Source of the DNA: a virus
DNA: 27,768 bases
Strand: one strand, 5' to 3'
IMG/VR virus record: IMGVR_UViG_3300043446_000892
Location: 1-27,768 of that record
Part shown: positions 22,399-23,847 of the stretch, in pieces
How positions within the stretch are numbered: the first letter of the stretch is position 1
Layout: each line of letters begins with the position of its first letter
Translations under genes and position numbers: made by a program
Notes under the pieces: model-generated
The model's database searches: none
Seen by the model: the letters and a program-made list of their open reading frames with translations, nothing else
What the model was told of the DNA's origin: nothing

Positions 22399-22426
22399 AC
22401 TTTAGCATCCTAAATATCTATGTCAA
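22399..22426 (-). promoter_or_regulatory. candidate leftward early promoter
   Basis: On the minus strand a perfect -35 TTGACA (22426-22421) is followed by 16 bases and TAAAGT (22404-22399) as -10. It lies 39 bases before the first leftward start codon and would drive the recombination operon. The fit is by eye; only 4 of 6 bases match in the -10. Confidence 0.6.
22401..22414. promoter_or_regulatory. candidate operator palindrome in the leftward promoter
   Basis: TTTAG-CATC-CTAAA is a perfect 5+5 inverted repeat overlapping the leftward -10. The half-site with one extra base, CTAAAT, recurs at 22455-22460 in the opposing promoter, so both could be targets of the Cro-like repressor encoded at 22467. 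Confidence 0.4.
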
Positions 22427-22431
22427 CCCCC

Positions 22432-22460
22432 TTGGCGAAAAAAAGTTTATATGGCTAAAT
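22432..22460 (+). promoter_or_regulatory. candidate rightward promoter of the repressor gene
   Basis: TTGGCG (22432-22437), a 17-base spacer and CTAAAT (22455-22460) with an upstream TG (22452-22453) fit an extended -10 promoter. The expected start of transcription falls on or next to the ATG at 22467, which lacks a ribosome site. Confidence 0.45.
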
Positions 22461-22466
22461 GCCGTT

Positions 22467-22634
22467 ATGGACATTCAGCAGATACTTAAACGGTTCCCAA
22501 GCCAACGGGCGATGGCGCAAGCGTTTGGCGTGACGGAAGGCGCGGTAAGCCAATGGATCGCAGCAGGGCGGCTACCGGACGCTAGGGTATGGCAATGGAA
22601 AGCAGGGCTGGCAAAGCCCGTGAAGCGTCGGTGA
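22467..22634 (+). CDS. Cro/YdaS-like helix-turn-helix repressor
   Basis: This encodes 55 residues from the ATG at 22467 (MDIQQILKRFPSQRAMAQAF onward). The helix-turn-helix is QRAMAQAFGVTEGAVSQWIA (residues 13-32), typical of small Cro-type proteins of lambdoid phages. It is transcribed divergently from the recombination operon, the usual place for Cro. The basic tail (KPVKRR) may contact DNA. There is no purine-rich site before the ATG; a leaderless mRNA is possible. No larger CI partner is visible in the window. Confidence 0.82.
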   Translation: MDIQQILKRFPSQRAMAQAFGVTEGAVSQWIAAGRLPDARVWQWKAGLAKPVKRR

Positions 22635-22649
22635 GGCCTAGAAACGACA

Positions 22650-22778
22650 AAGCCCGAGGGGGGCTCGGGCTTGACGGAACCGGTAGCCGGTTCTACGCTT
22701 GGGATTAGGTGGACAGCGTATAGCGAGGTTAAGGCAGGGGGCTGCCTCTCGTCAATACGCCAGACATGGAGTATTGAC
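22650..22778 (+). other. dense series of five inverted repeats between repressor and replication genes
   Basis: The 146-base gap has no good reading frame but holds five perfect inverted repeats in order. They are AAGCCCGAG/CTCGGGCTT (22650-22672, loop of five G), GAACCGG/CCGGTTC (22677-22693, loop TAG), TACGCT/AGCGTA (22694-22720), AGGCAG/CTGCCT (22732-22747, loop of four G) and GTCAATAC/GTATTGAC (22751-22778, 12-base loop). The first could end the repressor transcript, though no U-tract follows. The last carries a GGAG site at the edge of its loop, 9 bases before the next ATG. It could be a structured leader RNA, a terminator plus operators, or both. Confidence 0.65.
22671..22699 (+). promoter_or_regulatory. 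candidate promoter of the replication operon with palindromic spacer
   Basis: TTGACG (22671-22676) and TACGCT (22694-22699) are exactly 17 bases apart, and the spacer is itself the inverted repeat GAACCGG-TAG-CCGGTTC. An operator sitting between -35 and -10 would give tight repression. The -10 matches the consensus in only 3 of 6 bases, so this is tentative. Confidence 0.35.
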
Positions 22779-22780
22779 GT

Positions 22781-23302
22781 ATGCATTATTACCAACGTCA
22801 CATTGGTGACTACGCCCGAGATACGGGCCACTTAACCGTGTACGAGCATGGAGTTTATGTCCTCCTGCTAGACCGGCTTTACGGCACGGAAAAGCCCATT
22901 ACGGCCCGTGACGCTACCCAGATCATCCGTCCAGCAACGAAACGCGAACGTGAGAGCGTTCAGCGAGTGCTAGATGATTTTTTTACGTTGACAGCCTCGG
23001 GGTACATCAACAAACGGGCTGTGCAGGAGATTGAGAAATACCACGAAATAAGCCATAAACGTGCAGCAAGTGCGAATCGTCGGTGGCAAACTAGTCAAAG
23101 CAATAGCGATGCAAGTGCAATGCAAGTGCATAGCAAAAGCAATGCTATCCAAGAACCAATAACCAATAACCAAAACCGTATCCCAGAAATTAAAAAAAAT
23201 ACCCCATCCCCCCCTGCTCCCACGCTGGCTACTGGCGTCCAGCGTGGCGGGGGGTCTGTTTGGGTTGGAGAATTAGTCAAACCGTTTAGCGAGAGGAGAT
23301 AA
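22781..23302 (+). CDS. DUF1376 (YdaU-type) replication protein
   Basis: This encodes 173 residues. The N-terminal domain MHYYQRHIGDYARDTGHLTV then YEHGVYVLLLDRLYGTEKPI is the DUF1376 signature of phage replication initiators and helicase-loader-type proteins. A Lys/Arg-rich stretch follows (about 75-110), then a Ser/Asn/Gln-rich linker encoded by direct repeats and a Pro-rich tail. The next gene carries what looks like the C-terminal part of many replication proteins, so the two may be halves of one function. GGAG is 9 bases before the ATG and lies in a hairpin. Confidence 0.85.
   Translation: MHYYQRHIGDYARDTGHLTVYEHGVYVLLLDRLYGTEKPITARDATQIIRPATKRERESVQRVLDDFFTLTASGYINKRAVQEIEKYHEISHKRAASANRRWQTSQSNSDASAMQVHSKSNAIQEPITNNQNRIPEIKKNTPSPPAPTLATGVQRGGGSVWVGELVKPFSERR
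23109..23192 (+). repeat. direct repeats and A-rich tract inside the replication gene (candidate origin)
   Basis: Two perfect, abutting copies of ATGCAAGTGCA occupy 23109-23119 and 23120-23130. They are followed by AGCAAAAGCAATGC, then three 7-base units (AACCAAT, AACCAAT, AACCAAA at 23154-23174) and a run of eight A at 23183-23190. Iterons plus an A-rich unwinding tract inside an initiator gene is the layout of the lambda origin within O. The coding consequence is a low-complexity linker. Confidence 0.5.
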
Positions 23303-23304
23303 AC

Positions 23305-23847
23305 GTGGACGTACCGGGTTTAGACATAGAAGCATTTGACCGTTGGGTGGCTTATCGCAAGGCCATCAAAAAGGCATACAAGGACGTTTCGCTACACGCC
23401 GCAGCGGTGAAGTTAGCGAAATACGGCGATAAACAGGCTGAAGTGGTAGAGCAGAGCATTGCAAACCAATGGCAGGGCTTGTTTGATTTGCAGGTGAAAA
23501 AACTGCAACCCGGCGAAAAACCCGTCAAATCTGACAAACAAAAAGCCGCCGACGACGCATATTGGCAAGCGACCGTGCAACGTGCCGAGAAAAACTGGTC
23601 AGAGATGATCCCGACCCCGTTCGGTCGCCTTAAAATCTGCGATGCGCTTTGGGCGCGATACACCGTAGAAGTCGGCCCCGACACCTGCGAAAAATTGGAT
23701 TGGCTGAAAGGCGTGGTAGCGCGAAACCTCAAGGAAGTGGAAGCCAAGCACGTTGTCAACGACCCAAATCTGATGGTGATGGTGATGTGCCTCTTCGGCC
23801 CGTCTGGGGTCAAGCGTATCCGCGAGCGCGCGGCGGTGGGCGCGTGA
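23305..23847 (+). CDS. replication protein, C-terminal type
   Basis: This encodes 180 residues from a GTG at 23305 with GAGAGGAG upstream. The N-terminal part (AFDRWVAYRKAIKKAYKDVS, AAVKLAKYGDKQAEVVEQSI, ANQWQGLFDLQ) is the pattern found at the C-terminus of many phage replication initiators and DnaT-like proteins. The second half is a helical domain with Cys and Trp (RLKICDALWARYTVEVGPDT). Being a separate gene two bases after the DUF1376 protein suggests a split initiator/loader pair. It likely recruits host DnaB helicase, by inference. Confidence 0.75.
   Translation: MDVPGLDIEAFDRWVAYRKAIKKAYKDVSLHAAAVKLAKYGDKQAEVVEQSIANQWQGLFDLQVKKLQPGEKPVKSDKQKAADDAYWQATVQRAEKNWSEMIPTPFGRLKICDALWARYTVEVGPDTCEKLDWLKGVVARNLKEVEAKHVVNDPNLMVMVMCLFGPSGVKRIRERAAVGA

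Follow-up and report, generated by a model that had tools for sequence, protein, structure and literature searches.

In an uncultivated phage, five perfect inverted repeats are packed into 129 bases directly ahead of the replication genes; what is their role? The window, by which we mean the whole 27,768-nt stretch analysed (positions 1-27,768 of IMG/VR record IMGVR_UViG_3300043446_000892), carries all five repeats at the positions given in the original prediction. They occupy a true intergenic gap between the stop codon of a Cro-like gene at 22634 and the ATG of a DUF1376 gene at 22781. The claims that no gene explains the repeats and that they precede replication genes are both borne out, since DUF1376 and then an O-like gene follow directly downstream. 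A tRNA/tmRNA scan returned none.

22467 to 22634, plus strand: Cro-like repressor gene, upstream (Pfam P22_Cro above cut-off)
22650 to 22672: repeat 1, stem 9 bp, loop GGGGG
22677 to 22693, no strand assigned: repeat 2, GAACCGG-TAG-CCGGTTC, stem 7 bp, loop TAG
22694 to 22720, no strand assigned: repeat 3, TACGCT/AGCGTA, stem 6 bp, loop 15 bases
22732 to 22747: repeat 4, stem 6 bp, loop GGGG
22751 to 22778, plus strand: repeat 5, GTCAATAC/GTATTGAC, stem 8 bp, loop 12 bases, window-specific, enclosing a likely ribosome-binding site (GGAG)
22781 to 23302, plus strand: DUF1376 replication (primosomal) gene, downstream (PF07120, 1.5e-21; primosomal proteins in PHROGs)
23305 to 23847, plus strand: O-like replication gene (PHROG 678, 'replication initiation O-like', 2e-11)

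The density of the repeats is as unusual as had been claimed. Counted as non-overlapping perfect hairpins (stem of at least 6 bp, loop of 3-15 bases), their 36 stem pairs rank top among all 129-base intervals (mean 3.2, s.d. 4.4), and the fold of both strands beats 200 of 200 dinucleotide shuffles (z = -4.9 for plus and -7.1 for minus). Upstream of the Cro-like gene, the dyads TTTAGCATCCTAAA (22401-22414) and TTTATATGGCTAAA (22446-22459) flank a divergent promoter region; both are seen again in L082, a relative described below, and judging by their sequence they are likely Cro operators. A leftward promoter-like site (TTGACA-16-TAAAGT, 22399-22426, minus strand, with TG preceding the -10) stands at the head of a leftward ERF operon.

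Relatives were collected by protein and DNA searches. A first search with DUF1376 returned relatives of at most 44% identity with gaps unlike that of the window, and the leftward neighbour gene, searched as protein, retrieved none. The O-like protein led to L082 (89% identity), which keeps the layout of the gap (a hairpin, CTTGACG, a 17/18-nt palindrome and TACGCT) with different stem sequences. A DNA pattern drawn from the window and L082 matched 85 viral stretches, which carry TTGACG, TACGCT and AGCGT by construction. Module sets independent of the pattern came from two more protein searches. The total came to 98 distinct viral modules, 56 after removal of similar ones. In 257 Gb of contigs from bacteria and archaea, a version of the pattern ending in AGCGTG, one base more specific than the viral one, had only three matches, all random-looking; as far as the pattern tells, the module appears to be absent from cellular genomes.

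Most relatives belong to class B, in which the module is followed by a region of ~290 nt instead of DUF1376 and then by an O-like gene. DUF1376 was present in all three class A contigs tested and in 0 of 15 class B contigs (up to 36.5 kb, and possibly incomplete). We built a covariance model on 19 class A relatives, leaving the window out. It has a single match in the window (22636-22767, E = 1.1e-13) and finds one plus-strand copy per contig in 18 of 18 related contigs, one of which shows an extra weak match on the other strand that overlaps its copy. Where a pattern-found module had 900 or more bases of downstream sequence, it preceded a DUF1376 or O-like gene in 47 of 47 cases, and a Cro-like gene lies upstream in 31 of the 56 non-redundant modules. 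No DNA similarity to named phages and plasmids was found (50,697 phage records). The O-like protein has a single named relative, MW202691, in which the covariance model finds no match. Rfam 15 gave no match at gathering score in the module region of the window or of the close relatives L082-L084. Over the window, 20 DUF1376 loci and L082-L084, its only hits were the int-alpA RNA and one tRNA, both in relatives; a sub-threshold IRES_Bip match elsewhere in L082 looks like chance.

Comparison of the modules suggests the following elements in the window, where hairpins 1, 2 and 4 correspond to repeats 1, 2 and 4:

22640 to 22649, minus strand: U-rich tail of the putative leftward terminator, TTTGTCGTTT on the minus strand, kept as ACGACAAA or ACGAAAA on the plus strand
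22650 to 22672, minus strand: hairpin 1, stem AAGCCCGAG/CTCGGGCTT, putative leftward intrinsic terminator (terminator scan, wobble bias)
22671 to 22699, plus strand: predicted promoter P+, -35 TTGACG (22671-22676), 17-bp spacer, -10 TACGCT (22694-22699)
22677 to 22693, no strand assigned: hairpin 2, occupying the P+ spacer exactly
22716 to 22760, plus strand: leader hairpin of the predicted rightward RNA (covariation, plus-strand wobble)
22716 to 22721 with 22755 to 22760, plus strand: closing stem of the leader, covarying in class A
22724 to 22727 with 22748 to 22751, plus strand: inner stem of the leader
22732 to 22737 with 22742 to 22747, plus strand: tip of the leader (hairpin 4), lying in the P- spacer
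22726 to 22755, minus strand: predicted promoter P-, -35 TTGACG (22755-22750), 18-bp spacer, -10 TAACCT (22731-22726)
22643 to 22719, minus strand: small leftward RNA of ~78 nt, hairpin 2 and then the hairpin 1 terminator (sequence prediction)

Hairpin 1 was flagged by a simple terminator scan on the minus strand only. Its stem varies among phages (AAGCCCGAG, CCCCC, AAGGGGCCACC or AAGACCCC, each with its complement), and over 38 distinct sequences 93 extra pairs are gained by wobble when it is read on the minus strand versus five on the plus strand, part of this count being one recurring A.C column. The 10-nt tail beside it holds a mean of 6.2 T on the minus side versus 2.2 on the plus side (56 non-redundant modules). 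With a T-rich tail and extra wobble pairs on the minus strand only, hairpin 1 reads as an intrinsic terminator for leftward transcription.

To the right of this terminator, the hexamers suggest a sigma70-type rightward promoter, P+, with a predicted transcription start at ~22706. The site TTG[AC]C[GC]-N17/18-TA[CG]GCT occurs in 31 of 31 distinct class A modules from the protein-search set, which was not selected by the DNA pattern. At class B (O-like) loci, the -10 reads TATTTT, TACCTT, TACTCT or TAACCT with the spacing unchanged, and this variation is confined to the form TAnnnT. Varying at constant spacing, the element behaves as a -10 would, unlike an RNA stem. The promoter calls rest on sequence match, and both -10 elements are GC-rich (TACGCT for P+, TAACCT for P-).

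The leader hairpin reads as part of a plus-strand RNA. In class A, 6 of 8 pairs of the closing stem covary and 98% of cells are paired, many as G-U on the plus strand; the inner leader hairpin gains 106 pairs by plus-strand wobble versus 13 by minus-strand wobble. Hairpin 4 was scored by per-sequence stem counts instead of columns, because its register shifts between sequences. In the window, the leader sub-fold has a free energy of -22.6 kcal/mol. In class B, pairing of the outer stem, GCGTGATGG/CCACCACGC, is better when it is read on the minus strand, and the closing stems of three class B modules (L320, L322 and L343) diverge strongly (GAGGTG/CACCTC, AGAGTG/CACTCT). The first suggestion for the repeats had been a structured leader RNA of the replication operon; the hairpin at 22716-22760, covarying with plus-strand wobble, sustains it, and yet accounts for only half of the element.

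Competition with repeats 3 and 5 kept the closing stem off the original list of repeats. This stem shows compensatory changes, as does hairpin 2, whereas repeats 3 and 5 are not kept. Repeat 3 shares bases with the P+ -10 and with the 5' arm of the leader stem; its partners change without compensation (0 pairs with changes on both sides, broken in at most 5 of 19 sequences), and we rejected it as an independent conserved stem. A cloverleaf closed by TTGAC/GTCAA was likewise rejected, having no compensatory changes. Repeat 5 is without a counterpart in relatives, where another hairpin occupies its place. When the window is folded, repeat 5 wins over the closing stem once fully transcribed, and shorter transcripts form the closing stem. 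It is tempting to conjecture that this competition might affect translation.

One possible explanation is that the module consists of a rightward promoter and a cis-acting leader only, with GTCAA serving as a single-stranded RNA motif, no P-, and hairpin 1 blocking stray antisense transcription. The clear plus-strand preference of the leader hairpin fits this explanation, as does the near-fixed place that GTCAA keeps in all modules between the inner and the outer stem (98 of 98 counted, with two loci that end before GTCAA set aside), and GTCAA could indeed be conserved for a reason at the RNA level. However, the minus strand of this motif reads TTGAC, extended by the next base to TTGACA or TTGACG in 55 of 56 modules, and a -10 match 17/18 nt further on beats 500 of 500 shuffles in both classes. 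The score is 4.05 in class A (shuffle mean 2.19, maximum 2.8) and 4.53 in class B (shuffle mean 2.60, maximum 3.22), so that the signal holds in both although their leader sequences differ. A conserved leftward terminator, moreover, needs a leftward transcript to stop. We consider an explanation by promoter and leader only rather unlikely.

The minus-strand site thus suggests a second sigma70-type promoter, the leftward P-, with a predicted start at ~22719. In class A, its -10 takes the forms TAACCT, TAGCCT and TACCCT, and the conserved minus-strand site TTGAC[AG]-17/18-TAnCCT, upstream of the O-type gene, would face the rightward early transcript. In class B, the -10 usually starts with C (CAGACT), with TAAATT and others also present. 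A transcript from P- to hairpin 1 would measure 72-87 nt (median 78 over the 56 non-redundant modules), and the copy predicted in the window folds at -33.6 kcal/mol (z = -5.4). These features are consistent with the existence of a small leftward RNA.

A convergent promoter pair with a structured rightward leader and a terminated leftward small RNA of ~78 nt, analogous to lambda pO/oop, would account most simply for every part, and we favour it with moderate confidence. Points against it are the GC-rich -10 elements, the hexamers forced by the pattern on some of the modules, the C that usually opens the P- -10 in class B, the minus-strand preference of the class B outer stem and a possible RNA-level reason for keeping GTCAA. 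Rightward transcription from P+ (22671-22699) would reach DUF1376 and then the O-like gene, and the resulting RNA would begin with the hairpin leader (22716-22760). P- (22755-22726) would transcribe ~78 nt leftward through hairpin 2 and stop at hairpin 1, a terminator that would also keep leftward transcripts out of cro. The opposing polymerases and the short complementary RNA may then tune transcription into the replication genes, as lambda pO/oop does.

In this scheme we also infer a role for hairpin 2. It is palindromic in nearly all 48 distinct spacers (mean stem 4.8 bp versus 2.8 bp shuffled) and shows compensatory changes, with covariation in 4 of 4 counted pairs. Its wobble pairs prefer neither strand, so its place in an RNA is presumptive. 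A palindrome without strand-biased wobble, set exactly between -35 and -10, would also suit an operator, and a cluster of operators was among the original suggestions: hairpin 2, and perhaps hairpin 4, would be dyads in the spacers bound by a repressor, like those of Arc/Mnt or MerR-type regulators. But the half-sites change freely between phages, differing widely even among close relatives, and hairpins 2 and 4 differ from each other within one phage. The dyad common to cro promoter regions (TTTAGN4CTAAA/TTTAN6TAAA) is located elsewhere, at 22401-22414 and 22446-22459, and is not shared by GAACCGG-TAG-CCGGTTC; on this ground we rejected hairpin 2 as a Cro operator. The hairpin 2 dyad occurs only once in the window. 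We regard an operator cluster as improbable.

The put sites of phage HK022 are hairpin RNAs from the beginning of an early operon, as the predicted leader of the module would be. An antitermination or pausing site of the nut/put kind, in which the rightward leader would modify RNA polymerase for readthrough of later terminators, nevertheless appears the least probable of the explanations, although an antitermination site was also among the original suggestions. A place downstream of cro, early in the rightward operon, and the covarying hairpin with its invariant motif would agree with it, but Rfam gives no match up to E 5, a casual reading of the sequence showed no nut boxA/boxB arrangement, hairpins 1 and 2 lie upstream of the predicted start, and nothing else points to such a site.

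The module is not the only structured-looking element found before these replication genes. The ~290-nt region of class B (L082 2700-3000; L139, L158, L186, L201 and ~40 other class B loci) looks like a covarying RNA, with 47 predicted pairs that have Watson-Crick changes on both sides in a set that also contains two stray class A loci. Its motifs are GGGGAAACNACGCGCA, GGATGGCTCCGTCAGTCAT and a CAGTCAT that is repeated; in L082-L084, Rfam gave no match to it. L094, L114, L126, L207, L213 and L221 carry a second type of this region, of different sequence. Another structured-looking element (GCCGTG..GGTCGGAAAGTCAGTC..) lies upstream of DUF1376 in L003-L005, L025 and L067, with no Rfam match at gathering score in L003, L025 and L067.

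It is possible, though we hold it only tentatively, that all of this forms a virus-only replication switch: face-to-face promoters with a folding palindrome in each spacer, hairpin 2 being transcribed by the leftward promoter and hairpin 4 by the rightward one, form a cassette before either DUF1376 or a structured RNA, and the latter may take over the role of DUF1376 at the origin. Such a switch, if so, would be undescribed before. The exchange of a protein gene for a ~290-nt RNA-like region in class B raises the question of whether an RNA can replace an origin-binding or primosomal protein.

Among known elements, the int-alpA RNA (RF02996) fills the gap between cro and DUF1376 in L007, L013, L038 and L048, in the same slot and on the same strand as the module. 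Its layout and sequence are unlike those of the window, in which RF02996 has no match even at E up to 5. In these loci, one of its loops likely pairs with a strand further downstream to form a pseudoknot (for example UUCUUCAC/GUGAAG).

The closer parallel is the lambda pR-pO region, where pO makes oop RNA, lowers transcription from pR and tunes replication, and where loss of pO impairs replication (PMC3985674). As in lambda, the module sits between cro-side genes and a replication gene, a leftward promoter, here predicted, opposes rightward transcription into O, and a short leftward RNA, also predicted here, has its own terminator. The two differ in that lambda pR lies far upstream, whereas both promoters of the module fall within ~85 bp with their -10 elements ~27 bp apart, and in that both spacers of the module are palindromic. 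Unlike oop, which is antisense to cII, the predicted RNA overlaps no neighbouring gene: it ends at ~22643, the Cro-like gene stops at 22634, and there is no cII-like gene between. The likeness is one of layout, with no sequence homology shown. If the convergent-promoter account is true, lambda-style tuning of replication recurs in a much more compact form in a large lineage of uncultivated phages, by way of an element that Rfam does not list.
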